DNA of 64,000 nucleotides from Rhodospirillaceae bacterium MC! (GTDB lineage Bacteria; Pseudomonadota; Alphaproteobacteria; MC1). The stretch is taken from positions 1 through 64,000 of the forward strand of contig NQOV01000019.1 of assembly GCA_002632265.1 (NCBI GenBank), in the 5' to 3' direction. The position numbers and the translations under genes are program-made. The notes beneath the pieces are model-generated. The model was not told the DNA's origin. It saw only the letters and a program-made list of their open reading frames with translations, and made no database searches. Numbering within the stretch: position 1 is the first letter of the stretch; each line of letters starts with the position of its first letter. This document shows positions 25,014-62,087 of this stretch, in pieces.

Positions 25014-25026
25014 CAGCAACCTATAG

Positions 25027-25056: not shown

Positions 25057-25214
25057 TTATCTATATTTTTACTTGTTCTTAAAATAAAAATAGACATTTC
25101 GATCCATATATGGTATCATTATAAGAAGTTGGAAAGAATTCTTTTAGAAACAATTAAGACATAAATATTTATAACAAATATCATAAATACTTAAAGCAAA
25201 TTACTAAAGCTTTT

Positions 25215-25282
25215 CAATCGATTAGTTAATCAATTTATCAACTAATTAATCAACAACTAATCAACTAATCAATCAATAACTC
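25215..25282 (+). promoter_or_regulatory. cluster of TAATCAA direct repeats before first sulfatase
   Basis: Upstream of the sulfatase start there are at least five close copies of (AAC)TAATCAA, plus GATTAGTTAATCAA. The same half-site TAATCAAA builds the 26-bp palindromes upstream of both permease genes, so this may be a multi-site target for the same regulator. Confidence 0.4.
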
Positions 25283-25302
25283 AAAATTCTGGGAGAAATA
25301 AT

Positions 25303-26778: not shown

Positions 26779-26780
26779 AT

Positions 26781-26835
26781 AAACACAAAAAAATATCGAT
26801 TAATGAATTACATTAATCGATATTTTTTTGTGTTT
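26781..26835. terminator. 25-bp perfect palindromic terminator between convergent genes
   Basis: Perfect inverted repeat 26781-26805 / 26811-26835 around a 5-nt loop, core ATATCGATTAATG, with seven A and seven T. Works in both directions between the sulfatase and the permease. Confidence 0.9.
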
Positions 26836-26838
26836 TAA

Positions 26839-26874
26839 ATTTAGCTATATCTTAAAATTAAGATATAGCTAAAT
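26839..26874. terminator. second perfect hairpin between convergent genes
   Basis: Perfect 16-bp inverted repeat ATTTAGCTATATCTTA (26839-26854) / its complement (26859-26874), loop 4 nt. Directly beside the previous terminator; less typical as a terminator because it has no long T run. Confidence 0.5.
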
Positions 26875-26935
26875 AGTTAAAGAGTTAAAGAGTTAAAGAG
26901 TTAAAGAGTTAAAGAGTTAAAAAGCTAAAGAGTTA
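26875..26935. repeat. 8-bp tandem repeat (AGTTAAAG)n
   Basis: Five perfect AGTTAAAG units, then AGTTAAAA, AGCTAAAG and a partial unit. Lies directly between the hairpin pair and the permease stop codon. Probably prone to slippage; no function evident. Confidence 0.85.
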
Positions 26936-26947
26936 TATTTACTCTGC

Positions 26948-28333: not shown

Positions 28334-28675
28334 GATTTTATTCCTTTTTTTTACTTTTATCTCTCGTAAATAATTTTAGTAAAGGAAGTACAAAATAATT
28401 TACAAGATTTAAATTTAGGTTTTATAATATAAATAAGTTTCATTTACTTATTTACTTATTCTTTCAAATTGTAGGATAGAATCAAAATAATTTAGATTTT
28501 ATAAATTATCTTTGATCAGTCAAATTGACGAGCAAAACTTTATAGATTAATTTTAATGAGTTAAATTTTATAACGTTTGATTTAAGACTACATTTAATTT
28601 TTATAATGCTTCAATTTCTATCTAACTATTTCATTATAAGATAGAGCATGCAAAAAAATATATAACTTAATCATC

Positions 28676-28701
28676 TTTGATTAACCAAAATACTAATCAA
28701 A
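28676..28701. promoter_or_regulatory. 26-bp palindromic operator candidate, copy 1
   Basis: TTTGATTAACC and CTAATCAAA half-sites around a non-palindromic AAAATA core; same 26-nt length as the perfect palindrome at 29106 and the sites at 33240 and 33653. About 345 nt upstream of permease copy 1. Confidence 0.55.
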
Positions 28702-29105
28702 ATTATAAACATCTGAAATATAATAATATTTATTAACAAAGAAATTACACAGAAACAAAAATAACCTATATTATTACGATATTAAAGCAATATTACATGA
28801 ATCACAAGTCATACACTATATAAGCATATAAAATTGAAATTTTATCCGTTTATAACTTAATTGTATTTTGTATGAATATATAAAACATTGTTTTTACTTA
28901 TATTATTCAATAATTAACTTACAGATTAAAAAAATATTCTTCACATTTTTCATTCTCTTTATTTAACTATGAGTTAAAAAAGACGATTCTAATTATACTT
29001 TAATTTCCAATTATAAAACTTAAAAACTATCATTAATTAAAAAAAATTTACCATATAATAGAGAAAAAATATTTTATAAAGCCAACTATTTCAAGCTCTT
29101 AACCC

Positions 29106-29131
29106 TTTGATTAACCATATGGTTAATCAAA
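29106..29131. promoter_or_regulatory. 26-bp perfect palindromic operator candidate, copy 2
   Basis: TTTGATTAACCAT followed by its exact complement. Perfect symmetry over 26 bp. Lies about 60 nt after the GH2 stop codon and ~775 nt before permease copy 1. Two-fold symmetry and length suit a dimeric helix-turn-helix regulator such as the ArsR protein at 22601. Confidence 0.65.
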
Positions 29132-29189
29132 ATATTTCTCTCTATTATTCATAGTAAATTTTTATATTAGATCTTATTTATAATATAAA

Positions 29190-31448: not shown

Positions 31449-31567
31449 ATTTTTTCTCCTAGAATATATATGATATGATGTATGATATAGTGTTGATATA
31501 GTGTATGATAAATAAATAAATTTATTTTAAGTTCATTCAAGTTCATTTAAGTTATTTTAAGTTAAAA

Positions 31568-32929
31568 TTAGGTTTCTACGTTGGTTTTATTAAAGTGAGT
31601 TCTAACTCTGATCTTATCATGTGAGTTTGCAAATCTAACCAAAAAGACTAAAATTAACACACATACAAAAATGAAAGCTGATAACTCAAAATATGTATTG
31701 GCCCAACCTTGCACATTAAACATTTCGCCAACTACCGCATTACCTGCACTACCGAATAAATTACAAATGAAATGGAAACCCACTAAAAAGGCCGTACTTG
31801 CAATCTTCTTATTAAACGAAACATTAACATATGATAACATAACCAAGTTTGTAAACGGATTCACAAGGCATAAAAATTGATAAGCAATGATACTTGCCAC
31901 AAGACTCGGCATATAATCACTTTCTGCCATATGTGTATGAAGGTATCCAGCCAATCCTAATCCCAATAAAGATACCGAATAACAACATGATAGTAAGATT
32001 ATCGTTCTACTTGCATTTAATCTCTTAATGAATCTAGAAGAAAATGAAAGTAATAAGAAAATAGCAATATTAATCGGCACACCAATATAAGCACCGAATT
32101 TTAAACCATATTTTTGCATATCATCTGGCCAGAAGTATAATGTATAACGTCCCACTTGTGAGTATTGAGCGTAAACGGCCACAATAATCGTAGATGAAAA
32201 GAACGCCAAAACGTAAAAGCGTGGATTTAAAATCAGATATTTTAAATCAGCCAATTGGACCTTCTTCTTAGATGTTGTTTTAGTATCTAAAGTCTCAAAA
32301 GCTTTTACTTTTAAAGTGAATAAAGTAAGAATCATGCAAACCGCAGCGAAACTAGCCAAATAAAATCCCCACATAGGATTTATTGTATATAGCATAGTAA
32401 GAGCAAAACCCATTACTAACCAACCCATAAATCCAGCACTACCGACTTTATCTTCTGTGCCACCATGGGCTAGAATATAACGACCGCAATAACTCCAAAC
32501 CGCAGCACTACCAGCTATCACAACATATCCAAAGTATACGCCACCTAATAAGCCCGCAAGATAAAACATGGTATGATTACCTGTCATCAATAATGGCTTA
32601 TAGATAAATTCAAAAAATGGACCAGACGCTAAACCCAAAATGCCAAGGCTTAAGACAAAATAAATACGCAGTTGTGTTTTATCTAATAACCAGCCAAATA
32701 ATGGTTTATAGAAAATAGCCACAATGGTTTTTAAGCCCATAAGTTCCCCAATTTCTAAGGGATTTAAATGGATTTGCTTATCTAACCATATGGCAAAAAC
32801 TTGCGACATTAATACCGCCGCTATACAACTGTGAAAAAATATAACTAAACAAATTTTTATAGTTGCTATATTTTTCTTATCTATTGCTCCCTGCTCTTGT
32901 AGGGTTTTTATGCTATCGTAGTCGCTCAT
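31568..32929 (-). CDS. MFS oligosaccharide:H+ symporter, LacY-like, copy 2
   Basis: 453 aa, 12 membrane segments, close paralogue of the permease at 26948-28333 over its full length (same MSDYDSI start, SQVFAIWLDKQ, FYKPLFGW, RYILAHGGTEDK). LacY substrate residues near Glu126 and Arg144 are again changed (SYCGRYI; KVGSAGF). First gene ahead of the GH2 enzyme. Two paralogues with separate operator-bearing spacers suggest two related substrates, for example oligosaccharides differing in sulfation or length; inference only. AAAAGGAG precedes the ATG. Confidence 0.85.
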   Translation of the reverse strand: MSDYDSIKTLQEQGAIDKKNIATIKICLVIFFHSCIAAVLMSQVFAIWLDKQIHLNPLEIGELMGLKTIVAIFYKPLFGWLLDKTQLRIYFVLSLGILGLASGPFFEFIYKPLLMTGNHTMFYLAGLLGGVYFGYVVIAGSAAVWSYCGRYILAHGGTEDKVGSAGFMGWLVMGFALTMLYTINPMWGFYLASFAAVCMILTLFTLKVKAFETLDTKTTSKKKVQLADLKYLILNPRFYVLAFFSSTIIVAVYAQYSQVGRYTLYFWPDDMQKYGLKFGAYIGVPINIAIFLLLSFSSRFIKRLNASRTIILLSCCYSVSLLGLGLAGYLHTHMAESDYMPSLVASIIAYQFLCLVNPFTNLVMLSYVNVSFNKKIASTAFLVGFHFICNLFGSAGNAVVGEMFNVQGWANTYFELSAFIFVCVLILVFLVRFANSHDKIRVRTHFNKTNVET

Positions 32930-33239
32930 GATTTTACTCCTTTTGAATTATTGCGATGACTTTAACTATAATATTATTAATAGTCAAAGTCTGTTTTATA
33001 TTGAGAATTTCAACAAGCACTCTTAAGCTATTTATTCTTTGAATGTTTAAATATTTAAATGAATGTGAAATAAAGAAAGCAGAAAAAATATCAGTAAATA
33101 TAATTAATAAACTACTAAAACGGAAAGTATTTTTATGATTAACTTTATCTCAATAGCCTATATTTTTATTACTACTACATTTTCATCTTACTGGGATATT
33201 ATAAAATACTTAAGATTCTAAATCTTCAATTAAATTATC

Positions 33240-33265
33240 TTTAGTTAGCCAAAAGGTTAATCAAA
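33240..33265. promoter_or_regulatory. 26-bp palindromic operator candidate, copy 3
   Basis: TTTAGTTAGCC and GGTTAATCAAA half-sites, 26 nt overall. Its position relative to permease copy 2 (~310 nt) mirrors that of the 28676 site relative to copy 1, and it is followed by the same AAACATTTGAAATATAATAA-type sequence. Confidence 0.55.
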
Positions 33266-33652
33266 ATAATAAACATTTGAAATATAATAATATTTACCTA
33301 TAAAAAACATTTACTGTTATATAAATAATTTAAATTACAAGAATCTTAGATCAATACTCTTACGAATGCAAAATCCACTTTACAGATAATTTTTCCCATA
33401 ATTATTTATATATACTCTGCTAACATTATCCATATAAGATCCTGATTATTATATGCTTTATTTTATTATCATTACAAAATCACTTTAAGAATAGTCAATA
33501 TATTACTTACATTTGAGTTACAATATTGATACCTTAAGAGTATTCTAAATTCTGCTAATATCAGCCTTAAAATAAACATAATCCCATTAAAATTACTAAC
33601 TTGTAGAGAAAATCTACAAAAAAATTATACTGATTTTCAAACACTTAACTAG

Positions 33653-33678
33653 ACTGATTAACCATATGGCTAATCAAA
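33653..33678. promoter_or_regulatory. 26-bp palindromic operator candidate, copy 4
   Basis: TGATTAACCATATGGCTAAT core differing from the perfect palindrome at 29106 at only a few positions. Sits upstream of the divergent sulfatase as well as permease copy 2, so it could co-regulate both. Confidence 0.6.
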
Positions 33679-33892
33679 GTATTTTATTATTTTTATTTTA
33701 AAATAAATATATGTTATACTCATAAATGTAGATTAAAATACAAACTCTATTATAAAAAAGAGTTCTAGATAAAAAGAATTCCATATAAATAAAGAGATGT
33801 ACAAAAACTACACATATATATAACAAAACAATATTAACATATTTCAAGCAAAACATTAAAGTAACTTATTATAAAAAAGAGAGTGTAACAAC

Positions 33893-35404
33893 ATGAAAAA
33901 AAATATAATTGTGATACAAACTGATCAACAACGTTTTGACAGTTTAGGCTGTAATGGTAATCCATCGGCTAAAACAGTAAATATTGATAACCTAGCAAGT
34001 GAGGGGGTAAATTTCACCCGTCACATTTCTGTAGATCCTGCATGTCAACCATCGTGTGCAAGCTTTATCACTGGCTTATATGTACCAGGCCACGGTATTT
34101 CATCAAGCGGAATCCCATTGTGGCGACGTGATAACGGCTCTAAAAAGGTTAGTTTATTTGGTATAGATGTCAGAGATCGCATTCCAACCATGGGCGATGT
34201 TTTCACAGAAAATGGCTATGAAACATACTTACTAGGTAAACTTCATCTACAACCGTTATTAGCTGATGAATCTTATGGATTCTATGAATCTTCAGCCATG
34301 TGGGAAAAGGAAGAAACCGTACATGATAACAAGCCATACTACGGCTTTAAACATAAAAAATTAGCTCTTGGCCATGGTGAATCGCCATGTAATTATAACG
34401 GCGGTCATTATGGTAGATGGCTAAAGGATGAACATCCAAAAGTATTCGAACAAATGGCTCAACCAAGAAAACCAAGAAAGAAAGAAGGTTCAACTCGTGG
34501 CGATATCTATTTATCGGAATTACCGTCAGAACTGCATAATACCACATGGTTGGCTGGCGAAACTTGTAAGTATCTTGAAGAACAAAAAGATAGCGATAAA
34601 CCATTCTTTATGTTTATCGGCTTTCCTGACCCTCATCATTCATTCTGCCCACCTGCAGATATAGCTAAAGGTTTTCTAGATATCCCAGTACCTGATTTTG
34701 CGAAAATATCAGATATTAAGGGTAAAAAACCCAAAGCAGTACAAGAGGCCATAAAAAATCTCCATGCAGGGGATGTCGACGTTGCAGACGCTTACAGACA
34801 CACAACCGCCTCAATCAAATTGATCGATAATTCTATCGGCATGATTGTTGATAAGCTTAAAGAAATGGGCGTATATGATGATACTATTATTGTATTTACA
34901 TCAGATCATGGCGATTTCTTAGGGGATCTTAATATGCTGTGTAAATTTGATCTGCCATTTAATAATCTGTTAAATGTTCCGCTAATTGTTAAGCCAGCAA
35001 AGGGTTTTAAAGATACCCCTAAAGTGATCCCCCATGCTACCAGTATCGCTGATGTTTTACCGACATTAATGTCTATGGTTGGTCTAGATCAACCAACCTA
35101 CATGCAAGGTATTGATGTTTTTAGCGATAAATTAGCAAACAACAAACCAATGGCCACATCATATTCCGCTCGTGAAGAAGGTCGCAACATAACTCTTTAT
35201 GATAATCAATACAGATACACATACTATATTGATACTGGCGAAGAAGAACTATATGATCATAATGTGGATAAAAAAGAACTAGATAACCTAGCATACGAAC
35301 CAACAAGCGAATATGCAGAGATCTGTAAAAAGTTCAAAATGGAACTCTTCCAAAAACACATTGAATCAGATCTAGGGATATTCAACCATTACAACCTATG
35401 GTAA
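33893..35404 (+). CDS. S1-type sulfatase with altered CQPSC signature
   Basis: 503 aa, full alkaline-phosphatase-type sulfatase fold: TDQQRFDSLGC (metal Asp11), GKLHLQPL (usual Trp replaced by Leu), GFPDPHHSF, FTSDHGDFLGDLNMLCKFD. The signature that is normally C-x-P-S-R reads C51-Q-P-S-C55 in DPACQPSCASFITG: the Arg that helps both maturation and sulfate binding is Cys. Either a divergent subfamily or altered activity. No signal peptide. Divergent from permease copy 2 and flanked by operator-like palindromes; followed by a deleted copy of itself. Confidence 0.85.
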   Translation: MKKNIIVIQTDQQRFDSLGCNGNPSAKTVNIDNLASEGVNFTRHISVDPACQPSCASFITGLYVPGHGISSSGIPLWRRDNGSKKVSLFGIDVRDRIPTMGDVFTENGYETYLLGKLHLQPLLADESYGFYESSAMWEKEETVHDNKPYYGFKHKKLALGHGESPCNYNGGHYGRWLKDEHPKVFEQMAQPRKPRKKEGSTRGDIYLSELPSELHNTTWLAGETCKYLEEQKDSDKPFFMFIGFPDPHHSFCPPADIAKGFLDIPVPDFAKISDIKGKKPKAVQEAIKNLHAGDVDVADAYRHTTASIKLIDNSIGMIVDKLKEMGVYDDTIIVFTSDHGDFLGDLNMLCKFDLPFNNLLNVPLIVKPAKGFKDTPKVIPHATSIADVLPTLMSMVGLDQPTYMQGIDVFSDKLANNKPMATSYSAREEGRNITLYDNQYRYTYYIDTGEEELYDHNVDKKELDNLAYEPTSEYAEICKKFKMELFQKHIESDLGIFNHYNLW

Positions 35405-35458
35405 ACATTAACAATACAAGATAAAAAAGGTAAAAAAGGTAAAAAAGACAAAAGAGAC

Positions 35459-35799
35459 ATGAAAAAAAATATACTAATTCTACATACAAATCAACAACAC
35501 TTTGACAGTTTGGGCTGTAACGGTAATCCGTCAGCTCAAACTGTGAATATTGATAAGCTCGCAAGTGATGGCTCAAATTTAACTCACCATATTTCAGCGA
35601 ATGCTAGATGGTTAAAAGATAAACATCCTAAAGTATTTAATCAGATCAACAACGCAGGCGAAGAAGAACTCTACGATCATAATATTGATCGGCAAGAACT
35701 CAACAATCTTGCATATGAGCCAACGGATGAATATAAGGAAATATGTAAAAATATGCCCAATCCGATCTAGGAATATTCAACCATTACGGTTTATGGTAA
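35459..35799 (+). pseudogene. internally deleted copy of the preceding sulfatase
   Basis: An open frame of 103 codons (35459-35770) stitches three pieces of the upstream sulfatase: residues ~1-46 (MKKNILILHTNQQHFDSLGC), a middle piece (ARWLKDKHPKVFNQ) and the C-terminal part (GEEELYDHNIDRQELNNLAY). The frame then shifts; DNA similarity continues to the equivalent of the parent's final LGIFNHYNLW stop at 35797-35799, and even the TGGTAAACATTAAC after the stop is shared. The FGly motif and metal sites are gone, so no sulfatase activity is possible. A decayed tandem duplicate. Confidence 0.88.
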
Positions 35800-35844
35800 A
35801 CATTAACTTAAGCATTTAAATTCACAATCTATTAGGAGAAAAAC

Positions 35845-37350
35845 ATGCCAAAACAAGCAATTATAATTATGACCGATACTCAAAGAACCGACATGCTAGG
35901 ATGTTATGGCTTTGACGATATGATCACCCCCAATCTCGACGCTCTAGCAAAAGAAGGGGCGATGTATACCAATGGTTACACTTGTACGCCCGTATGTGGG
36001 CCAGCACGTTCGGCTCTTTTTACGGGAATTTATCCGCATACAAATGGTAGTTGGACAAATAGCCAACCAATTGGCGATAATATCAGAACTATCGGACAGC
36101 GTTTAACAGATGAGGGGACAAAATGTGCCTACATCGGCAAATGGCATTTGGACGGTGGCGACTACTTTGGAATGGGCGATTGTCCTAAGGGTTGGGATGA
36201 AGAATATTGGTATGATATGAGAACCTATCTAGAAGAGTTAACAGATGAAGAACGCTTACTCTCTCGCAATGTAAAATCTAGCTTTGCCGATTGGTTTACC
36301 GAAGAGTTCACCTATGGTTATCGTTGCACTCAACGAGCTATTAAATTTTTAGAAGAACATAAGGATGAAGATTTTCTTCTTGTGGTTTCCTATGATGAGC
36401 CACACGGTCCGAGTTTGTGTCCGCCAGAATATTTTAAACCCTATGAAGATATCATATTCCAACGCAATAAAAAGCAAAATATCTATGATACACTAGAAAA
36501 TAAACCAGAACATCAAAAAATATGGGCAGAAACCACCGAACATCTTGACCGTGCCACCCATACAAACATCGGCTTACAAGCTATGTTCGCTTGTAATAGC
36601 TTTGTAGATAAAGAAATCGGCAGAGTAAAAAATGCCATAGATGATAATACGCCCGATAGTCTGATTTTCTATACTAGTGATCATGGATCGCACGAAATGT
36701 CGCACGGTTTAAGCTATAAGGGCCCTACCATGTATGAAGAGAATGTAAATATACCATTTATCATTCGTTGGAAAGGTAAAGTGTTGGCAAATCAAACCAT
36801 TGATCATCCTGTATCTCACATTAATATTGTGCCGACTTTAATGGAATACTTCTGTAATCACATTCCAAAAACTCTAGAGGGTAATAGTATATTAAAACAT
36901 CTAGAAAATCAAGAAGTTAGATCCAACAAATATATTTTCTCTGAATTCGGTCGCTATGAGGCAGATCATGACGGCTTTGGCGGATTCCAGCCAATTCGCT
37001 GTATTTTAGACGGTCGCTATAAACTTGTAATAAATCTAATGACAACAGATGAACTCTACGATTTAGACACAGATCCCGAAGAAATGGATAATCTTATCAA
37101 CTCAACAGACGCTAACATTATTAAAATTCGTAACACCATGCACGACGAATTACTACAATGGCAAAGTGATACAAGAGATCCTTTCCGTGGTTATTATTGG
37201 CAATGTCGTTCTTGGAGAACAGAATACAAACCAAAATGGGATTACACAGGGCAAACTCGCCAACGTGAAGAAGACGAAAAATACGAAAAACGCCAACTCG
37301 ATTATTCAACAGGCCTGCCAATGGTCAACGCCGTACGTGGCAAAAAGTAG
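35845..37350 (+). CDS. type I formylglycine sulfatase, CxPAR variant
   Basis: 501 aa. MTDTQRTDMLGCYG metal motif (Asp11), FGly motif C51-G-P-A-R55 in PVCGPARSALFTG (accepted variant of CxPSR), IGKWHLDGGDYFG, YDEPHGPSLCPPEYF, YTSDHGSHEMSHGLSYKG. Cytoplasmic. Clearly a different subfamily from the other two, so the locus can remove at least two or three sulfate linkages. AGGAG lies 6 nt before the ATG. Ends before a double terminator and convergent dehydrogenase gene. Confidence 0.93.
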   Translation: MPKQAIIIMTDTQRTDMLGCYGFDDMITPNLDALAKEGAMYTNGYTCTPVCGPARSALFTGIYPHTNGSWTNSQPIGDNIRTIGQRLTDEGTKCAYIGKWHLDGGDYFGMGDCPKGWDEEYWYDMRTYLEELTDEERLLSRNVKSSFADWFTEEFTYGYRCTQRAIKFLEEHKDEDFLLVVSYDEPHGPSLCPPEYFKPYEDIIFQRNKKQNIYDTLENKPEHQKIWAETTEHLDRATHTNIGLQAMFACNSFVDKEIGRVKNAIDDNTPDSLIFYTSDHGSHEMSHGLSYKGPTMYEENVNIPFIIRWKGKVLANQTIDHPVSHINIVPTLMEYFCNHIPKTLEGNSILKHLENQEVRSNKYIFSEFGRYEADHDGFGGFQPIRCILDGRYKLVINLMTTDELYDLDTDPEEMDNLINSTDANIIKIRNTMHDELLQWQSDTRDPFRGYYWQCRSWRTEYKPKWDYTGQTRQREEDEKYEKRQLDYSTGLPMVNAVRGKK

Positions 37351-44943: not shown

Positions 44944-44972
44944 TTGACTTATGGATTTTTATGTGGTATATT
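44944..44972 (+). promoter_or_regulatory. promoter of the thr operon
   Basis: TTGACT (44944-44949), 17-nt spacer, TATATT (44967-44972). Transcription would begin near 44979, about 53 nt before the leader peptide ATG. Confidence 0.75.
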
Positions 44973-45031
44973 GATAATCGAAACTTAATTAAACTATTTA
45001 ATTTAACGAATGTTATGAGTGTTATACTAAT

Positions 45032-45124
45032 ATGAATAAAAATGTATTTACAACTACAATCTTGACCACTACCACCACATCCACCGCTTTAGGTGAGATG
45101 ATGGTGTGGTTTCGCCATTTGTAA
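45032..45124 (+). CDS. thrL: thr operon leader peptide
   Basis: 30-codon frame beginning MNKNVF; residues 7-18 read TTTILTTTTTST, so nine of twelve are Thr, with one Ile and one Leu. Such a run is what a ribosome-stalling attenuator uses to sense charged tRNA-Thr (and tRNA-Ile). It lies between a strong promoter and a terminator directly upstream of thrB-thrC. The functional analogue is E. coli ThrL, also Thr/Ile-rich. No strong ribosome site is visible before the ATG. The Thr codon stretch (45050-45085) is complementary in part to the GATGATGGTGTGGT segment that follows. Confidence 0.88.
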   Translation: MNKNVFTTTILTTTTTSTALGEMMVWFRHL

Positions 45125-45190
45125 ATTGAATGTATAGCAGATTAAAATAATTTAGAAACTCCATTACTTATAAAGTAGTTGGAGTTTTTT
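45065..45190 (+). promoter_or_regulatory. threonine transcription attenuator
   Basis: Three parts are visible. (1) Pause hairpin: ACCAC (45065-45069) and CACC (45082-45085) pair with GTGGT (45106-45110) and GGTG (45092-45095). (2) Terminator: AAACTCCATTACTT (45156-45169) with AAGTAGTTGGAGTTT (45173-45187), then a T run. (3) A candidate antiterminator: GTGGTTT (45106-45112) can pair with AAACTCC of the terminator arm with one mismatch. Ribosome stalling at Thr codons would free part 2. The alternative fold is not computed. Confidence 0.75.
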
Positions 45191-45250
45191 TATTGTGTGG
45201 GTTTAGTGAGAGAAGTATAAATATTAATTACCTAGTCATGGAGATTGGAA

Positions 45251-46258
45251 ATGAGAACAATAGATATTCACAAAGATAAGAAAGTTGCAATTTTTGCACC
45301 TGCGTCTATGGGTAATACCTCTATTAGTTATGATTTAGTAGGAACGGCGATTGTGCCGATTTCTGGGGAGTTGTTGGGGGATACGGTTACGGTTTCCTTA
45401 AATCATGATGATGACGGTAATAAAGTTATGGTATTGGGAGATTTTGCTCATTTAGTGCCGAGTGATGGCAGTAATCTTGCGGAATTGGGGTTAAATATCT
45501 TTCATGAAAAGCTAGAGCAAAAGGATATCAAGCAAGAAAATATTATGCTAACCTTATATAAGAATCTAGCGATTGGAACAGGTTTAGGGTCGTCGGCTTG
45601 TTCGGTTGTGGCTACAATTGAGGCTTTAAATAGATTCTACGATTATCCATTTACTAAAGATGAAGCCTTGCAGATAATGGCGATTTTAGAAGGTAATGTC
45701 TCGGGAGCGGTGCATTATGATAATATCGCCCCTGCGTATTTGGGTGGAATGATCATTGTTGATACGAATAAACCGCAAAATATGATCAACATACCATATA
45801 ATAAGGAGTGGTTTCTTACGGTTTGTTATAATGGTCAGAAGATTTCCACCGCTATGGCTCGTAGTATATTGCCAAAGGACTATCCTAAGGACACGGCCGT
45901 CCAAAATGCTTTAAATTTAGGGCTATTTATTCACAATTGCCATATAAAAGACTATCATAAAGCTCTAGAATATATGGATGAGATCATCGCCGAACCGCAT
46001 AGGAAAAGCTTAATTGATGATTATGATCTCGCCCATGATAAATGTCTAGCATATGGCGGACTAAATTTCGGGATCAGTGGATCGGGACCTACGGTCTTTG
46101 GGGTTTTTGATGATCAGGAAAAAGCCAATGAATTCAATCTATGGCTAGAAAAAAACTTCATAAAAAACCAAATGGGATCAACTAACGTTTGCAAAATATC
46201 GGCAAATGGTGTACAAATAATTACAGACATGGAGAATCATACAAATGACATTTTATAA
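45251..46258 (+). CDS. thrB: homoserine kinase, GHMP type
   Basis: 335 aa. Phosphorylates homoserine to O-phosphohomoserine. GHMP features: VAIFAPASMGNTSISYDLVG, ATP motif IGTGLGSSACSVVA (GTGLGSSAC at 109-117), EGNVSGAVHYDNIAPAYLGGM and GLNFGISGSGPTVFG. The sequence resembles the enterobacterial enzyme closely; alphaproteobacteria typically use an unrelated choline-kinase-like ThrB, so transfer is likely. ATG 45251 is preferred over an in-frame TTG at 45245 because GGAG lies 7 nt upstream. Overlaps thrC by 14 nt. Confidence 0.93.
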   Translation: MRTIDIHKDKKVAIFAPASMGNTSISYDLVGTAIVPISGELLGDTVTVSLNHDDDGNKVMVLGDFAHLVPSDGSNLAELGLNIFHEKLEQKDIKQENIMLTLYKNLAIGTGLGSSACSVVATIEALNRFYDYPFTKDEALQIMAILEGNVSGAVHYDNIAPAYLGGMIIVDTNKPQNMINIPYNKEWFLTVCYNGQKISTAMARSILPKDYPKDTAVQNALNLGLFIHNCHIKDYHKALEYMDEIIAEPHRKSLIDDYDLAHDKCLAYGGLNFGISGSGPTVFGVFDDQEKANEFNLWLEKNFIKNQMGSTNVCKISANGVQIITDMENHTNDIL

Positions 46259-47552
46259 TTTAAAAAACACAAGCGAGCAGTACTCATTTAAGGACGCAGT
46301 GAAGATCGCCATAGGAAGTAATCAAGGCCTATTATTTCCTAAAAATCTACCGAAATTTAGCCCTGTGGAAATCGATGAACTGCTCGAGTTGGATTTTGTA
46401 GAAAGATCCAGCAAGATCCTATACGAAATTCTAAAGGACGACGTATCACATATGGATACAGTCAAAAACTGGGTAACTAAAGCCTTTACTTTCCCTGTGC
46501 CGTTAACAAAGTTGGGCGAAAATGGGCATGTGTTAGAATTATTTAGCGGTCCTACTTTAGCTTTTAAGGATTTCGGAGCGAGATTCATGGCTCAAGCCTT
46601 ATTGTGGGCAAGTCAGGAAGAAAAATCAGGTAAAGATATCACAATTTTAACCGCCACATCAGGCGATACAGGGGGAGCGGTTGCCAATGCTTTTTATGGT
46701 ATTGAAAATATAAAAGTTGTTATCTTGTATCCTAAAGATATGGTAACCCCTTTGCAACAACGAGTATTTACCACCTTAGATAAAAATATCCATTCCATAG
46801 AAATCGCTGGCAATTTTGATGATTCGCAGTCTTTAGTAAAAGATATGTTTCTAGATGAAGATATCAACAAGAATATCATTTTAAATTCGGCGAATTCCAT
46901 TAATATAGCTCGTTTGTTGGCTCAAACATGTTACTATTTTGAAGCTATCTCACAATTACCGCAAGATGAGAGAAAGAATATGACTTTCTGCGTACCGTCT
47001 GGTAATTTTGGTAATTTGTGTGCGGGCTTAATTGCCAAGAATATGGGCTTACCCATTAAAAAATTCATCGCAGGAACAAATATCAATGATACCATTCCAA
47101 GATATCTAAATGATAACATCTGGCAACCAAAGAAAACTCAAGCCACTCTATCGAACGCCATGGATATTTCCTTGCCAAGTAATTGGGTGCGAATTGAACA
47201 AGGTTTGTATGATAATGATCTAAGTAAGTTAAAACAAGATGTATCTTCCAACTTCGCCACCGATCAAGAGATAAAAGATAAAATGTTAGAGATCTATAAA
47301 AATCACAACTACATAATAGATCCACACACTGCCAACGGCTTGGCGGTAATCGGTAAAGAGCTTACGGCAAACGATAAATACGTAGTTCTCTCAACCGCTC
47401 ACCCTGCGAAATTCCAAGAAAAAGTTGAAAGTATCCTAAACATTAGCATACCTCTACCCCCACAGCTAGCCAACCTAGGCACATCCGAACCACAAAAACA
47501 CAAAATGCCTTGCAACTTCACCCAACTAAAGCAATTCTTACTTGAATTATAA
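46245..47552 (+). CDS. thrC: threonine synthase
   Basis: 435 aa PLP enzyme making threonine from O-phosphohomoserine. N-terminal NLKNTSEQYSFKDAV and NQGLLFPKNLP, PLP lysine in SGPTLAFKDFGARF (Lys108, equivalent to E. coli Lys107), TATSGDTGGAVANAF phosphate site, CVPSGNFGNLCAG and DPHTANG. Similarity is again to the gammaproteobacterial short form. Overlaps thrB by 14 nt, so translationally coupled. thrA is absent: homoserine must be supplied by genes elsewhere. Confidence 0.95.
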   Translation: MTFYNLKNTSEQYSFKDAVKIAIGSNQGLLFPKNLPKFSPVEIDELLELDFVERSSKILYEILKDDVSHMDTVKNWVTKAFTFPVPLTKLGENGHVLELFSGPTLAFKDFGARFMAQALLWASQEEKSGKDITILTATSGDTGGAVANAFYGIENIKVVILYPKDMVTPLQQRVFTTLDKNIHSIEIAGNFDDSQSLVKDMFLDEDINKNIILNSANSINIARLLAQTCYYFEAISQLPQDERKNMTFCVPSGNFGNLCAGLIAKNMGLPIKKFIAGTNINDTIPRYLNDNIWQPKKTQATLSNAMDISLPSNWVRIEQGLYDNDLSKLKQDVSSNFATDQEIKDKMLEIYKNHNYIIDPHTANGLAVIGKELTANDKYVVLSTAHPAKFQEKVESILNISIPLPPQLANLGTSEPQKHKMPCNFTQLKQFLLEL

Positions 47553-52127: not shown

Positions 52128-53564
52128 ATGAATGTATTATTTGTAACTTCGGAATGTTATCCCTTAGCCATATCTGGCGGTCTTGGGGATGTTGTTGGAT
52201 CTTTACCTAGCTATCTCAATGACATAGGCGAAAACTGTAGAGTCCTTATGCCTGGATATCCTCAAGCCATTAAAGCCTTAGAAAAGAAAGGTAAACCTAT
52301 CAAGTTAGGCGATCCCTTTGGTTTGGGCGATATCTCCTTATTACCGGGCGAATTGCCAAACGGGGTAAAAGTATGGCTAATTATCGCAGGAATGTACGAC
52401 AGAGAAGGCGACCTATACGGATATAATGGCGAAGATTATGGCGATAATCATTATCGCTTCTCTTTATTGTGCCGAGTAGCCTCTCACATTGCGGTAATTG
52501 GTAGATATATAGGCTTTGAAGTGGATATGTTCCATGTAAATGATTGGCAAGCGTCATTAACGCCCGTATATTATTCGCAAACAGGCAATAAATTTATTCC
52601 AACATTGTTAACGATCCATAATATAAAGTACAAAGGTCTCTATGATATTCACCGCTGTACCGAATTGGGAATTCAAAGCGAATTTTTATATAATCAGTGT
52701 GAATATTACAATAATTTAAGTTTCTTAAAAGCTGGAATTGAGTTTGCCACATATATTAATGTGGTAAGCCCTACATATGCAGGCGAAATCCAACGCCCCG
52801 AGTTCGGCTATGGCTTTGAAGGATTAATGCAAAGACATTCCTATAAACTTTGTGGCATTCTAAATGGTATAAATTGTAATCATTGGAATCCGCTAGATGA
52901 TAAATTTATTGATCATAAACTAACTAATATTAAACGGATTACATCATTTAAAGATAAAAATAAAATGTCTTTACAAAAGAAACTTGGCTTGAAAGTAGAT
53001 AAATCCATCCCTTTATTTGTCTGCGTTTCCAGATTGGCACATCAAAAGGGAATCGATATCATTCTCCAACAAGCCGAACAGATCATCCACAATGGTGGCC
53101 AGTTGGCTATTTTAGGCAATGGCGATAAGCATTTGGAATACTTATGCCATGCAAAAGCCATGTATTATCCTGATCAAATGTCATTTAACAATCTTTTTGA
53201 TCAAAAAATAGCACATCAATTATATGCAAGTGGAGATTTCTTACTTATGCCATCCCGCTTTGAACCTTGCGGATTAAGCCAAATGTACGCTCTAAGATAC
53301 GGCACGATCCCAATAGTAAACGCCACTGGCGGTCTTGAAGATAGCATTATCGATATATTCGATCAAAATTTCGGCTACGGCATTAAATTCCACAACCCTA
53401 ACGCCTACTCTTTAAGTTTAGCTTTAGAGCGAGCATTTAACGTCTATAAAGACACAGTCGGATTCGAAGTCATCCGCTATAGAGCCATGAAACAAGATTT
53501 CAGCTGGCACAAATCCGCTCAAGACTACCAAAATGTCTATAACCATATGAAATATCTATATTAA
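52128..53564 (+). CDS. glgA: glycogen synthase, ADP-glucose type (GT5)
   Basis: 478 aa. Transfers glucose from ADP-glucose to alpha-1,4-glucan. N-terminal domain MNVLFVTSECYPLAISGGLGDV, FHVNDWQASLTPVYY and LTIHNIKYKGLYD; C-terminal GT-B domain CVSRLAHQKGIDI and SRFEPCGLSQMYALRYGTIP with the ADP-glucose Glu. The lysine of the usual KTGGL motif (Lys15 in E. coli) is Ile15 here (AISGGL), at an otherwise gap-free alignment. In E. coli that lysine helps bind ADP-glucose. Works with GlgC and GlgB encoded nearby. Confidence 0.94.
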   Translation: MNVLFVTSECYPLAISGGLGDVVGSLPSYLNDIGENCRVLMPGYPQAIKALEKKGKPIKLGDPFGLGDISLLPGELPNGVKVWLIIAGMYDREGDLYGYNGEDYGDNHYRFSLLCRVASHIAVIGRYIGFEVDMFHVNDWQASLTPVYYSQTGNKFIPTLLTIHNIKYKGLYDIHRCTELGIQSEFLYNQCEYYNNLSFLKAGIEFATYINVVSPTYAGEIQRPEFGYGFEGLMQRHSYKLCGILNGINCNHWNPLDDKFIDHKLTNIKRITSFKDKNKMSLQKKLGLKVDKSIPLFVCVSRLAHQKGIDIILQQAEQIIHNGGQLAILGNGDKHLEYLCHAKAMYYPDQMSFNNLFDQKIAHQLYASGDFLLMPSRFEPCGLSQMYALRYGTIPIVNATGGLEDSIIDIFDQNFGYGIKFHNPNAYSLSLALERAFNVYKDTVGFEVIRYRAMKQDFSWHKSAQDYQNVYNHMKYLY

Positions 53565-53582
53565 TAATAGACACAAGCTAAT

Positions 53583-53619
53583 TCAAACGCTCCAAACCTA
53601 ACTTGTTCAGAGTGTTTGA
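53583..53619 (+). terminator. candidate terminator after glgA
   Basis: TCAAACGCTC (53583-53592) and GAGTGTTTGA (53610-53619), one G-U pair, followed by CTTCTT; weak T run. Confidence 0.45.
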
Positions 53620-53760
53620 CTTCTTACCAATGTAAATTGATATTATATCACTTATACCAAAGATAATTTTAATCCTGTATATTTTTTACTGTGTGATGTG
53701 ATATGGTGTGATACGATACGGCGTGATGTGGCGTGCCATATTAGATTTTATATTGTTGTC

Positions 53761-54375
53761 ATTCCTGTTGCTGATACTTTCAGGCCTAAATTAGGTATAG
53801 TATAAATATATATAACATTAGTTTAAATATGGTTTAATGGATTAGTAATACAATTACAAACAGTTACATATTAAACAGTATCTAAAGTATCTTTTTATAT
53901 ATTAATTATATATTTACTATAAATCAGAGACTATAATAACAATCACAGTATATAAAACAGTCATATTTCATTTGCGATGTTCCATATTATACCTCCCACT
54001 CCATACACATATAAATAGAAATGCTTATTGTATATCATTCCTGTTGCTCATTGTTAAAGGTCTAAAATAAGCGTATAATAAATATACATATACCTGGTTT
54101 AAGTATGGTTTAATTAATTAGTGATACACTTACAAAGTGTTACATATTAAACAGTATCTAAAGTGTCTTTTTATATATTAATTATATATCTACTGTAAAT
54201 CAGAGATTATAATAACAATCACAGTATAAAACAGTCATATTTTATTTGCGATGTTCCATATTATATCTCCCACCCCATACACATATAAATAGAAATGATT
54301 ATATCCTTTCTGTTGCTCATTGTTAAAGGTCTAAATTAGGTATACAATAAGTATATATATACCTGGTTTAAATAT
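53761..54375. repeat. ~270-bp tandem repeat, 2.25 units, upstream of glgC
   Basis: Unit 1 starts at 53761 (ATTCCTGTTGCTGAT), unit 2 at 54037 (276 nt on), and a truncated unit 3 at about 54307 stops near 54375 after ACCTGGTTTAAATAT. Conserved blocks include TTACATATTAAACAGTATCT, ATTTGCGATGTTCCATATTA, a C-rich CTCCCAC patch and CCATACACATATAAATAGAA. No conserved open frame longer than a few codons. On the minus strand the C-rich patch reads GGGAGNTATAATATG, which could be a ribosome site or -10 element. Confidence 0.85.
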
Positions 54376-54440
54376 TACTTAATAAAATCGCTGTTTTCAC
54401 ATATATCATTAGTTTATATTCGTTTATCATGCCATCTTTT

Positions 54441-54469
54441 TATTCAGGCCTATTATTTAGGCCTGAATA
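54441..54469. repeat. CAGGCCTA hairpin upstream of glgC (family R3)
   Basis: Perfect 12-bp arms TATTCAGGCCTA / TAGGCCTGAATA around TTATT. The core CAGGCCTA-TTATT-TAGGCCTG recurs exactly at 56855-56885, downstream of glgC. A remnant CAGGCCTAAATTAGG lies in unit 1 of the tandem repeat (53782). Confidence 0.8.
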
Positions 54470-54780
54470 GAAAGGTAAATCATACAAAAATAAAATCTTA
54501 AGATAAAACGGCAAAAAAATGGGCTGGGGGTTTGGGATGTGGTTGTACTTATTTCGTTTTTTATGTTCATTAAATGATCGTTGTTATTTAGAATCTGTCA
54601 TGTAATATCAAGAGAATCATAGCATGTGGAGAGTGATTCTTGGGGGAGATATTTTTCATCTGATTATTATATTTTCTTTTTAGGTAAAAATTTTTAAGAT
54701 GATTATCAAGAGCTTATGAGATTTTTTTGGAATGTGGATATAATAATATGAGGATAATAAAAAAATTTTCAATAAAATAC
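54470..54780. other. non-coding stretch upstream of glgC promoter
   Basis: No gene. GAGAATCA (54611-54618) and TGATTCTT (54632-54639) form a short inverted repeat; G-rich GGGCTGGGGGTTTGGG at about 54521 is unusual in so AT-rich a sequence. Confidence 0.4.
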
Positions 54781-54809
54781 TTGACATTAACATATTTTTA
54801 ATATATAAT
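54781..54809 (+). promoter_or_regulatory. consensus sigma70 promoter with long leader to glgC
   Basis: TTGACA (54781-54786), 17-nt spacer, TATAAT (54804-54809): both boxes are full consensus. The next gene start, glgC, is 549 nt further. A TATAGAAAGGATTA motif just after the promoter (about 54815) is nearly the same as the glgC ribosome site region, but lacks an ATG. Confidence 0.7.
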
Positions 54810-55357
54810 GAAATTATAGAAAGGATTAGACTTATAGCTAATAACAGATATATCCTAATTACAATTCTTTAGAGTGAAATATTAAATAAACAATTAAAAT
54901 AAATATTATAGAATAAAACAAATTTATGAAAAGCTTATACTAACTATTATGGTATAAATTTTAAAAACTAAATTACTTAAAATGCAGTTTAGGACATAAT
55001 TTTGAAAAGTCAAATTTAACAAATTTCCTTCAACAAGAGTTATAAATTGGAACATCAATCTAATTTAAGAAATTCCATGTATTTAAAAGCAAAAATTTTT
55101 AGATATATGTTTCGTAAGTAATGTTTAATGTCCCTAACATTATGATATATTGGCTTTATGATCCTATTCTTTTTATTACAATCTAACAGATTGTAGACTC
55201 AAATCACTTAACTTCATATTAAAGTAGTTAACTTATAGATTTACAACAAATAATTTTCATTACGCTTTGTTAGTGCAAGTTATTGTTTAAAAAAATAGTA
55301 ATCTTGATAATAAAGAAAGTTAGGTTTATTAAAATATATAGAAAGGATTAAAAAATT

Positions 55358-56680
55358 ATGCCTATTAATAACGAAAATTTAAACTCTGCAATACGAGATA
55401 CTCTTGTAATCATTTTAGCGGGTGGTCGTGGTACACGTCTAGGGGGTTTAACTAAATACGAAAGCAAGCCAGCTGTTCCTTTTGGTGGCGAGTTTAGATT
55501 GATTGATTTTCCGCTATCTAATTGTATTAATTCTGGATTCAGAAGAATTGCTTTAGCCAGTCAATATCAAGCACAAACCTTAATGCACCATGTAAATAAT
55601 GGTTGGAATCTGTTAAATAAAAGCTTAAATGAGTTTATTGAAATGTTACCAGCAGAACAAAAACATAAGGGATCTCAATGGTATTGCGGTACTGCGGACG
55701 CTATTGCACAAAATATACGCTATATTAAATCTCACAGACCTAAATACGTTATGATTTTATCAGGCGATCATATTTATAAACAAGATTTTAGTATCATGTT
55801 AAGAGATCATATTGACTCTGATGCTACGTGTACGGTTTCATGTTTAGAAGTGCCAAAGGCGGACGCTAGTGCTTTCGGTTGTATTGATGTTGATGATACT
55901 GATATGGTTATAAACTTTATTGAAAAGCCAGAAAATCCGCCAACAATCCCAGGTAATTCGGAAATGACATTTGCCTCTCAAGGGAACTATATTTTTGATG
56001 CGGATACTCTACTTGAGATCTTAGAAGCTGATACTTTAAATGAAGAAAGTAGCCACGATTTTGGGCATGATATTTTACCATTATTAGTACAAGAAAATTC
56101 TTTACTGGCTCATAGTTTTTCTAAATCATGTGTATATTCAGGCTCTCAAGTGGCTTATTGGAAAGATGTGGGAACAATTGACGCTTATTGGAAAGCCAAC
56201 ATTGCTCTTACAGATGTGATTCCCGATTTCAACTTCTATGATGATAATTGGAACATTTTCTCTAAACAAGAGTTTTCACTTCCTGCCAAGTTCGTATTTG
56301 ATGACAATAGACGCCGTGGGCAAGCTATGGATTCATTAATATCTTCTAAGGTTATTATTTCTGGTGCTTTAGTGAAAAAATCTGTGATTTCTCATGGTGT
56401 TGGTATCCATTCTGGATCAGTTGTGGAAAAATCTGTCATTCTACCTAATGCTGTAATTCAACCTAATTGTACAATTATAAATGCCGTTATTGGTGAAGAT
56501 TGTGTTATCCCTGAAAATACAGATATCGGCGTAGATAATGCAGAAGACAAGCGTTTCTTTGAAGTTACCGATGAAGGTATCGTACTAGTTACACAAAGTA
56601 CACTTAAAAAATATAGAACTGCTATAGCAAAAAAAAAAGAACTTGAGCTAAAAGAACCTGTTGTTTTACACGCTGTATAA
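55358..56680 (+). CDS. glgC: glucose-1-phosphate adenylyltransferase
   Basis: 440 aa. Makes ADP-glucose, the first committed step of glycogen synthesis. Nucleotide motif LAGGRGTRLGGLTKYESKPAVPFGG, NCINSGFRRIALASQYQAQ, WYCGTADAIAQNI, LSGDHIYKQDFS (catalytic Asp), FIEKP (glucose-1-phosphate Lys) and C-terminal left-handed beta-helix (AVIQPNCTIINAVIGEDCVI). AAGGATTAAAAAATT precedes the ATG. The long leader (promoter at 54781) leaves room for post-transcriptional control. Normally allosteric. Confidence 0.96.
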   Translation: MPINNENLNSAIRDTLVIILAGGRGTRLGGLTKYESKPAVPFGGEFRLIDFPLSNCINSGFRRIALASQYQAQTLMHHVNNGWNLLNKSLNEFIEMLPAEQKHKGSQWYCGTADAIAQNIRYIKSHRPKYVMILSGDHIYKQDFSIMLRDHIDSDATCTVSCLEVPKADASAFGCIDVDDTDMVINFIEKPENPPTIPGNSEMTFASQGNYIFDADTLLEILEADTLNEESSHDFGHDILPLLVQENSLLAHSFSKSCVYSGSQVAYWKDVGTIDAYWKANIALTDVIPDFNFYDDNWNIFSKQEFSLPAKFVFDDNRRRGQAMDSLISSKVIISGALVKKSVISHGVGIHSGSVVEKSVILPNAVIQPNCTIINAVIGEDCVIPENTDIGVDNAEDKRFFEVTDEGIVLVTQSTLKKYRTAIAKKKELELKEPVVLHAV

Positions 56681-56744
56681 TTTTATTGGAATACAAAACC
56701 TTTCATAAAAGTATTCTAAATCAAACCTTTACTCTATTATCCCA

Positions 56745-56783
56745 AAAAACCCCTTGCAAACTTCATCACTTGCAAGGGTTTTT
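56745..56783 (+). terminator. terminator of glgC
   Basis: AAAAACCCCTTGCAA (56745-56759) and TTGCAAGGGTTTTT (56770-56783) with one bulged C; T tract follows. Confidence 0.85.
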
Positions 56784-56854
56784 ATTTTCTCTAATTAACA
56801 TACCCCTTTCACAATAAAAATGATCGTTTTAGTATTTCTTTTCTAAATGCTTAT

Positions 56855-56885
56855 CATTGCAGGCCTATTATTTAGGCCTGCAATG
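56855..56885. repeat. CAGGCCTA hairpin downstream of glgC (family R3)
   Basis: Perfect 13-bp arms CATTGCAGGCCTA / TAGGCCTGCAATG around TTATT. The inner 21 nt are the same as at 54441-54469 while the outer stem differs but stays complementary, which points to selection for the hairpin. Confidence 0.8.
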
Positions 56886-57000
56886 GTAAACACAACAACC
56901 ACTTTCCACCAACTCCAATACATGCGATAATATATGCGATAAAACATGCCATATGTAACACTCTCCTTTTAGACCGTTCTCAAGGTCTCTGACTGCTACA

Positions 57001-57060
57001 AAAAGATCCTAATATGCACCTTAAACCATGCCTTAAATATCACTCTTTAAATATCACTCA
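57001..57060. repeat. R1-family half copy E plus short direct repeats
   Basis: AAAAGATCCTAATATGCACC then TTAAACCATG matches one arm of copy B at all but a few positions. Between it and the LRAT-like gene's stop, AATATCACTC recurs (57036, 57050) and is echoed in the gene's last codons. Confidence 0.55.
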
Positions 57061-57543
57061 TTAAATATCCCAGACACGCCATTCTATGGCGTTCATTTCT
57101 ATTTCGGCTAGGTGTTTTACGTGGCTTAGCATGTTGTATTCGTTGTTAAAATCGCCAGTTAAGCAACCAGAGCTAAATTTATGACAGTTATTGTTTAAGG
57201 CGTGATAGTTTGTGAAAGTATCAATTTTATTTTCGGCACGGAGAGCGGTTTCTTTAGAGCCTACAGGGTTTCCGTATTTATCGCAAGAGACATAAATGGA
57301 CCATCCCAATCCCCCTGATGTGAAATGGGAATAGTTTTCTGATCGGATGTAACCATCACGATTTAGCCCAACTATATGACCCTTGCCAACGTATACGCCC
57401 GAGTGTTGAATTTCTTCTGATATACCAAACACAAGATCGCAATAAACTATACTTCCTATGGCTGGTTCTGATACTTTATCCTTTAAATGAGTTAGGGCAG
57501 ATGTTGTAAGGTTTTTTGCCCAGTGGTATGCTATTTCTGACAT
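57061..57543 (-). CDS. LRAT-like / NlpC-P60-superfamily papain-fold protein
   Basis: 160 aa. Permuted papain-like LRAT domain: IQHSGVYVGKGHIVGLNRDG (His47) and YHALNNNCHKFSSGCLTG (nucleophile Cys120), i.e. the His then NC-F pattern of the family. Members are acyltransferases or thiol hydrolases on lipids or peptides. No signal peptide, so probably cytoplasmic. The link to the adjacent glycogen genes is unknown; the gene has its own AAGGA (AAAGGATTAACA) and follows malQ on the same strand after 139 nt. Confidence 0.75.
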   Translation of the reverse strand: MSEIAYHWAKNLTTSALTHLKDKVSEPAIGSIVYCDLVFGISEEIQHSGVYVGKGHIVGLNRDGYIRSENYSHFTSGGLGWSIYVSCDKYGNPVGSKETALRAENKIDTFTNYHALNNNCHKFSSGCLTGDFNNEYNMLSHVKHLAEIEMNAIEWRVWDI

Positions 57544-57682
57544 TGTTAATCCTTTCCATTAATTTATGTTATTCTAGAAATAAATAATTGCATTTTATAG
57601 TTTTTTGTTTTTTGTTTTTTGCCTTTTGAGTTGTTACTTGCTAGCTGTTAGCTGTTAACTTTTACTTGCTAGCTGTTAACTA

Positions 57683-59845
57683 TTAGTTTTTATTTTCCTT
57701 ATTAAAACGATCGTGTTTAGACATTATATGCGATAAATCTGTCATAATCCCATTAATATCTTCTGTATCTACTGGAGTTTTCAAGCCCCAATTTCTATAG
57801 GTCCTACTAGTCCCTGGAATATTCAACGGATGATAATTGGATAATAAATCATGATAATTCACCATAGCAATAAGCGAAGAACTTTTGGCAACATATTCTT
57901 GGGTTTTCATGGTTAACTCTCGCATATTTTCATCATGATGATGATATTTAAAAGTAGGCATGATATTTTGATCTGACAAAGCGTCCATGATCATTTGGCG
58001 TTCTTTTTCTCGTTGAGTTTCCTTATGGATTATCGCTTCATAATGATCCAAACCAAGCTTACGCTCATAGGCAATATCAGACCCCATATAATAACCCGCC
58101 ATTGTTGGCAGATCGTGGTTTGTGGTAGAGGCAACACTTAATTTCTTGTAGGTATCAGGGCGTTTAAACAAGCCAGTATCTTCCCAACGTTCAAAGATCA
58201 TAAGAGTAAATGAAAGGATGTTTTTACGTTCTAAATCTTCCTTAAATCCGTCTTCCACCAAGCCCAAGGCCTCGCCCACTATAACGCATGAATTCCTTTT
58301 ACTTTCCAAGCATAAAATACTCATCATATCTTCCTTAGGGAATGACAAATATACCCCCTGTTGCGATCCTAACTCTTCATGAATTACAAATAATCTACTC
58401 AAGCCTATTACATGATCTAACCTTAAGAAATTAGCATATTTCATTGTGTTTCTTAAGACATTACTATAGGATTTATAACCTGTCTTATGTAATTCTTGCG
58501 GATTATAGGGTGTAAGATTCCATTGCTGACCGTCGGCAGTGAATTCATCGGCAGGTGCTCCCACGGATACATCGCTAATATACAATCTAGGGAAAGCCCA
58601 TGTTGTATAGCCTCCTGTCATTGTTCCGATAGCAAGATCGAGAAATAAACCATCGCTTAAGTTATTCTTTATTAAGGTTTTAATGGATTTATCCAACTGA
58701 ACACTAGTTTGCCATTGTAAGAACTTATAATATAAAATATCATTTTGATGTTTAATTTTAAATATTTTAATATCTTTACTAGTTTTATCATGATATTTTT
58801 TATCCCATGATAACCATGATGTGGAATTATGTTTCATGGATAAAACGCAATAAGTTGCATAATCATCAAGGTTACTATCTAGCTGATTATTACAGAAATC
58901 CATAAACTTAGCATATTCTTTATTGTTTTTCTTGCCCTTATTTTCTTGAATAAATGTTTTAAATATCTCTCTTGTGATTTGAGTGAAATATTTAGATATA
59001 AATTTATAATTAACATAGCGGGATTGTTTGGCAACTGCCATTTCCTTTTGCAGTTCCAAAGCTTGAGTAATTTTCTTTAGATTGGTACATTTTTTGTAGC
59101 CTACGATTTTACTAATATCCATATACAAAGGATCTAAATAATTACGAGATATGGGGAAATACGGGCTTTTTGCGTCGCTATTAATCTCGGTTAGTTGGGC
59201 GTGCATGGGATTTAAAGCAATCATTGATCCCCCCTGCTTTGCCACTTCCTTACCGAAATTTGTTAGATCTGTAAATGTGCCGATACCATTACTATTTTTA
59301 GATTGTAAAGCGTAAAGTTGTACGGATACTCCCCACCTTTTTTCATTATTTTTGATCCAATCTGGTACAAAAGCTTGCGACGGACACAAAATAAGATACG
59401 CCTTTTGCAAATAATCGTTATTTGTTAAAGTTACTTCATGATATCCTTCCATGATATTAGCGAGTGTCATGTGGAAATTATTGTCTTTTATTTCATAATC
59501 TGTAATTTCTTTAGAATATTTAATGGTTTTGCCATTCTCTAATTGCACAGATAAAGCAACTTTCCCCACTGTAAGCTCATGTGTTCGTATGGGCAGTATG
59601 AATTTATTCTCTACGCACGATAATACATTAGATGACTTTAAGGGCTTAATTTCTTCTTTGCGAATTTCATTTAGATAATCATTAATTTCTTTTTCTGTGG
59701 AAGTTTTATAACCCATAGCATTCAGGAATTTTTCCTTTGTTGTGGTTGATGTTTCCTTATAGTTACCATTTTTCTCATGGTATCCATTACATATGCCAAT
59801 TTTTTCGGCTAAAGTGTTTATACTTGCTTCATGTAAATTTGTCAT
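57683..59845 (-). CDS. malQ: 4-alpha-glucanotransferase (amylomaltase, GH77)
   Basis: 720 aa, the long bacterial form with an N-terminal beta extension (~1-150). Disproportionates maltodextrins. NLRLDH-type nucleophile region FLRLDHVIGLSRLF, acid/base VIVGEALGLVEDGF, and TTNHDLPTMAGYYMG with the third carboxylate. RVWGVQ-like WGVSVQLYALQSKNSNGIGTFTDL near the start of the barrel. Third gene of the leftward glgB-glgX-malQ run, recycling short glucans from debranching. AGAAAGGATAAACTT precedes the ATG. Confidence 0.94.
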   Translation of the reverse strand: MTNLHEASINTLAEKIGICNGYHEKNGNYKETSTTTKEKFLNAMGYKTSTEKEINDYLNEIRKEEIKPLKSSNVLSCVENKFILPIRTHELTVGKVALSVQLENGKTIKYSKEITDYEIKDNNFHMTLANIMEGYHEVTLTNNDYLQKAYLILCPSQAFVPDWIKNNEKRWGVSVQLYALQSKNSNGIGTFTDLTNFGKEVAKQGGSMIALNPMHAQLTEINSDAKSPYFPISRNYLDPLYMDISKIVGYKKCTNLKKITQALELQKEMAVAKQSRYVNYKFISKYFTQITREIFKTFIQENKGKKNNKEYAKFMDFCNNQLDSNLDDYATYCVLSMKHNSTSWLSWDKKYHDKTSKDIKIFKIKHQNDILYYKFLQWQTSVQLDKSIKTLIKNNLSDGLFLDLAIGTMTGGYTTWAFPRLYISDVSVGAPADEFTADGQQWNLTPYNPQELHKTGYKSYSNVLRNTMKYANFLRLDHVIGLSRLFVIHEELGSQQGVYLSFPKEDMMSILCLESKRNSCVIVGEALGLVEDGFKEDLERKNILSFTLMIFERWEDTGLFKRPDTYKKLSVASTTNHDLPTMAGYYMGSDIAYERKLGLDHYEAIIHKETQREKERQMIMDALSDQNIMPTFKYHHHDENMRELTMKTQEYVAKSSSLIAMVNYHDLLSNYHPLNIPGTSRTYRNWGLKTPVDTEDINGIMTDLSHIMSKHDRFNKENKN

Positions 59846-59941
59846 AAGTTTATCCTTTCTCGGTTATTTTTTTATTTTTCTAATTTTTTAATTTTAATAT
59901 TATAATATTTGAATTGGTTTTTAGTTGGTTTGTTAATGTTT

Positions 59942-62050: not shown

Positions 62051-62087
62051 TTTATTATTCTTTATTGTAAATTGTTAAAAGTAAAAG

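Follow-up and report, generated by a model that had tools for sequence, protein, structure and literature searches.

A putative threonine attenuator in front of gammaproteobacterial-type thrBC genes in an apparently alphaproteobacterial genome

Results

In the 64-kb stretch of DNA that was analysed (the window), a short threonine-rich ORF and an intrinsic terminator are located directly in front of two genes of threonine synthesis, all on the forward strand. The first of these genes, thrB (45251-46258), encodes a GHMP homoserine kinase of the gammaproteobacterial type (TIGR00191, 208 bits vs. a cut-off of 168) and carries GGAG 7 nt before its ATG at 45251. The second, thrC (46245-47552), which overlaps thrB by 14 nt, encodes a threonine synthase of the E. 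coli type (TIGR00260). Upstream of the leader region, an AraC-family gene on the same strand ends at 44817. Elsewhere, the window contains two adjacent, similar multi-pass membrane proteins with the look of MATE-type efflux pumps (7412-10611, tandem duplicates); three sulfatase-like proteins with a beta-galactosidase/glucuronidase-like enzyme, a further glycoside hydrolase-like protein and two similar transporters (23925-37350), a cluster that looks like one for sulfated sugar breakdown; and a glycogen gene cluster composed of glgA-, glgC-, malQ-, glgX- and glgB-like ORFs (52128-63989).

At 44944-44972, the forward strand has a site resembling a sigma-70-type promoter, TTGACT-17-TATATT (10 of 12 matches), in which TG precedes the -10 element; it predicts a transcription start at about 44979. 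The initial annotation had called it a consensus-like promoter; the site is there, but sites of such quality are not more frequent than expected by chance in this AT-rich stretch (3 found vs. 3.7 expected), and for this reason the promoter itself is only plausible.

The leader ORF (45032-45124, forward strand) has 30 codons, encodes MNKNVFTTTILTTTTTSTALGEMMVWFRHL and ends at the stop codon 45122-45124. The twelve residues from 7 to 18 include nine Thr, one Ile and one Leu, just as the initial annotation had read them. When the intergenic region was shuffled with its dinucleotides preserved, the highest Thr count per 12 residues was six, which none of the 5,000 shuffles exceeded, and no second place with at least seven Thr per 12 residues occurs in the six frames of the window. 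The control codons are ACC (four), ACA (three) and ACT (two). All three are common (98 ACA, 77 ACC and 66 ACT codons in ten genes of the window), so the control would not depend on rare codons; in E. coli thrL, the major codon ACC is likewise favoured (PMC1183508). The leader ORF has only a weak Shine-Dalgarno sequence, GAG about 13 nt upstream. A six-codon ORF (MSVILI, 45015-45035) overlaps the leader start codon with its terminal ATGA, which could provide translational coupling to the leader ORF or could be due to chance in AT-rich DNA.

The 191 nt around the leader fold more stably than all 200 shuffles (z -4.5). Three structures, all on the forward strand, can be distinguished. In the pause/protector hairpin 1:2 (45064-45111), the Thr codons at 45064-45085 pair with 45092-45111 (-23.6 kcal/mol), a pairing matched by 32 of 2,000 shuffles and therefore only moderately beyond chance. 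The antiterminator is formed by segment 2 (45093-45113, GUGAG-UGAUGG-GGUUUC) and segment 3 (45155-45171, GAAACU-CCAUUA-CUUAU), the latter doubling as the terminator's 5' arm; its 17 pairs with two small bulges (-15.7 kcal/mol) are matched by only 3 of 2,000 shuffles, and the same measurement in three gammaproteobacterial thr leaders gave -14.2 to -18.3 kcal/mol. The terminator hairpin (45154-45191, -14.6 kcal/mol) carries seven T (45185-45191); its stem is bulged, and it is visible in the fold although a simple terminator scan missed it. The 2:3 pairing is mutually exclusive with both hairpin 1:2 and the terminator. A partly complementary pause hairpin and a T-run terminator just before thrB had been noticed in the initial annotation, which pointed to RNA folding as the way to find exclusive hairpins; the fold recovers both structures and adds the antiterminator.

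The behaviour of partial transcripts agrees with this arrangement. Four RNAs starting at 45090-45099, where ribosome stalling at the Thr codons would leave the RNA free, and extending up to the 3' arm of the terminator all adopt the 2:3 antiterminator (-10.4 to -15.2 kcal/mol), while the RNA beyond a ribosome placed at the stop codon has the terminator as its sole structure. Equilibrium folding of the full-length RNA still favours the terminator over the antiterminator when segment 1 is masked; since the terminator is the more stable structure at equilibrium, antitermination would have to rely on co-transcriptional timing. A decision taken during transcription is usual for attenuators.

The genes behind the leader are of the gammaproteobacterial thrABC type. 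At 1e-20, a ThrB match was found in the source genome alone and in none of the 384 other genomes of the class sample (385 with its own); at 1e-15, it was found in 62 of 399 genomes of the phylum, its own included, with the best identity of 40-43%. A long ORF occupies the thrA position before thrB in all 29 phylum loci inspected. ThrC scores 364-460 bits against gammaproteobacterial ThrC of the thrABC type vs. 226-251 bits against alphaproteobacterial ThrC, and in the tree it groups with the former (98% SH-aLRT), apart from 19 alphaproteobacterial sequences. ThrB also falls with the gammaproteobacterial group, but its branch is very long and its exact position uncertain. Among solved structures, the best chain for ThrB has 221 bits (the next 116), and an E. 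coli-type chain is the best for ThrC (445 bits, the next 233); the PDB entries matched by the two proteins come from Yersinia, Cytophaga, E. coli and Brucella.

The genome lacks thrB_alt (TIGR00938), the homoserine kinase of alphaproteobacteria, for which the Caulobacter control gives a match, and no other thrC was found in it. It encodes a single homoserine dehydrogenase, which is monofunctional (406 aa), and a single aspartokinase, both on other contigs; thrA, the gene for a bifunctional aspartokinase-homoserine dehydrogenase that comes first among the structural genes of thrLABC, is thus absent from the genome. It is absent from the operon too, where the leader directly precedes thrB and the 60-nt stretch that separates thrB from the terminator holds no evident thrA remnant. 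The identification of thrB-thrC behind the leader and the lack of thrA, both claimed from the first reading of this DNA, are upheld by these data.

The assembly contains no 16S rRNA gene, and its class was therefore judged from UvrA, encoded on the same contig, whose best matches are from Azospirillum (65%) and other alphaproteobacteria, in plasmid-borne copies. By this protein the genome looks alphaproteobacterial, as had been supposed. A scan of the genome contigs for close relatives returned only distant Nitrosopumilus proteins.

Attenuation of thr genes is known mainly from gammaproteobacteria. By the filter that we used, a short Thr/Ile-rich ORF precedes thrA in 19 of 20 gammaproteobacterial operons, and none comparable was found before the native thrC in 40 alphaproteobacterial genomes, where the maximum is five Thr per 12 residues (vs. 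nine here). Thr and Ile counted together reach at most six per 12 residues in these 40 genomes and 7-11 in 18 of the 20 gammaproteobacteria. The Rfam family RF00506 (Thr_leader) exceeded its cut-off in none of 289 genomes of the class and in one control genome; its many sub-threshold matches in the class, up to 40 bits, were taken for terminator-driven noise. A literature search outside the main comparative study (Vitreschak et al. 2004) yielded no thrBC attenuator in Alphaproteobacteria. Thr-rich leaders are nevertheless not entirely unprecedented there, since a suspected leader peptide of Sinorhizobium, SEP5, is on record, encoded in the 5' UTR before an aspartate dehydrogenase gene and including six Thr and three Lys codons (PMC10117765).

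No Rfam family matched the window at the gathering threshold, and RF00506 gave the leader 15.1 bits (E 2.8) vs. a gathering cut-off of 55. Our own covariance model (R1), trained on 14 gammaproteobacterial thr leaders with four others held out, ranked the leader best in the window at 17.1 bits, followed by an unrelated site at 16.9, while the held-out leaders obtained 46-72 bits. With 15.1 bits from the family model, we do not assign the leader to the RF00506 family of homologues.

A second attenuator was detected in the same genome directly before ilvB (814-960 of locus L148; G000:C11:316813-316959). It combines a leader ORF rich in Ile, Val and Leu (MLKVFLKIALINLVVLLLINGKLDFCM), a terminator (AACTTCCTATCTTT...ATAGGAAGTTATTTTTTT) and an exclusive antiterminator (-13.6 kcal/mol, matched by 3 of 1,000 shuffles). 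The genes for aspartokinase and homoserine dehydrogenase showed no leader in front of them, and a leu leader searched for before the leu genes was not found. In Caulobacter, ilv genes are known to be subject to attenuation (PMC4117421), and the ilvB leader suggests that attenuation is an established mode of control in this genome.

Discussion

The presented data suggest that the region before thrB is very probably a ribosome-mediated transcription attenuator that senses charged Thr-tRNA and controls thrB-thrC. It has the general features of such devices: a short ORF enriched in Thr, a terminator before the first structural gene and an exclusive antiterminator; the genes under control, those for homoserine kinase and threonine synthase, are themselves threonine-making. 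From these parts and pairings, which are present in this single sequence, we infer the ribosome stalling, the transcript ends and the dependence on Thr.

When threonine is plentiful, the ribosome would pass the Thr codons, reach the stop codon and cover segment 2, leaving segment 3 free for the terminator, which would end transcription at about 210 nt. When Thr-tRNA is scarce, the ribosome would stall at codons 12-18, which form segment 1. Stalled there, it would block hairpin 1:2, whose 5' arm consists of the Thr codons, and segment 2 would then pair with segment 3 once it is made, so that no terminator arises and thrBC are transcribed. If the leader is not translated, hairpin 1:2 would form and termination would follow.

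One could suppose instead that no attenuation takes place here, the terminator being that of the AraC-type gene, which lies upstream on the same strand, and the Thr-rich ORF being fortuitous or a small functional protein. This is very unlikely: the terminator is more than 330 nt past the end of that gene, with the promoter-like site and the ORF in between, the density of Thr codons and the 2:3 pairing are both far from chance, and the downstream genes make threonine. It is even less probable that the segment is an assembly contamination from a gammaproteobacterium, as the gamma-like thrB and thrC might imply, because identity to gammaproteobacteria is just 36-43% for ThrB and about 50% for ThrC, the same contig carries the alpha-like UvrA, the genome would otherwise be without any thrC or native thrB_alt, and its estimated contamination is 0.04%. 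Most likely, judging by the protein comparisons, thrBC were acquired from a gammaproteobacterial operon of the thrABC type and replaced the alphaproteobacterial thrB_alt and thrC, a replacement in which homoserine dehydrogenase and aspartokinase would have remained separate genes. ThrB and ThrC were sampled within Pseudomonadota, and the assignment of the donor is tentative and applies to that sample.

The origin of the leader is a different question. A "reduced" thrLABC system, as initially proposed, is in agreement with the genes, which are of the gamma type, but is not demonstrable for the leader RNA, in which no relationship to gammaproteobacterial thr leaders can be recognised. Perhaps the whole thrL-thrA-thrB-thrC operon came from a gammaproteobacterium, and the deletion of thrA brought the attenuator beside thrB. 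This scenario is suggested by the thrABC type of the genes, the Thr-rich leader before thrA in nearly all gammaproteobacterial operons, and the same function and order of elements, while the near-background scores of the leader with both the gamma-trained model and the Rfam model, and the lack of an evident thrA remnant before thrB, speak against it. It is just as conceivable that a lineage in which leader-peptide attenuation was already in use evolved the leader independently in front of the acquired thrBC: the leader has no recognisable sequence similarity to gammaproteobacterial thr leaders, its control codons are almost purely Thr while those leaders mix Thr and Ile, and the attenuator before ilvB, which has its like in Caulobacter (PMC4117421), puts an origin in place on a par with inheritance from thrL. 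However, attenuator RNA diverges fast, and the missing similarity is therefore weak evidence; moreover, the genes targeted do not differ from those in gammaproteobacteria. We conclude that the leader probably resembles thrL in function, while descent from thrL is not demonstrated and an independent origin is equally possible.

Three known systems come closest to this locus. With thrL of the gammaproteobacterial thrLABC operon (RF00506) it shares the Thr-rich leader ORF, the 1:2, 2:3 and terminator hairpins and the control of thrB and thrC. It differs from this operon in the lack of thrA, in control codons that are nearly pure Thr (Thr/Ile in thrL) and in its alphaproteobacterial host, and from the members of RF00506 in an RNA that the family model does not recognise. 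The ilvBN/ilvIH leaders of alphaproteobacteria, such as those of Caulobacter (PMC4117421), belong to the same class of host and also employ leader-peptide attenuation, although with Ile/Val(/Leu) control codons and before branched-chain genes. SEP5 (PMC10117765), also from an alphaproteobacterium, is similarly a small Thr-rich ORF, located in the 5' UTR of a gene related to aspartate; it differs in its gene, that for aspartate dehydrogenase, in its mixed Thr/Lys codons and in having no described attenuator structure.

We suggest that this locus is a candidate either for a transfer of thr attenuation between classes or for its independent origin. If the latter is true, the control logic of thrL would have been reinvented before foreign genes. 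Cases such as this thrBC leader are missed by the curated model RF00506, and the arrangement found here would represent a thr attenuator whose control is confined to thrBC and does not include the aspartokinase step.
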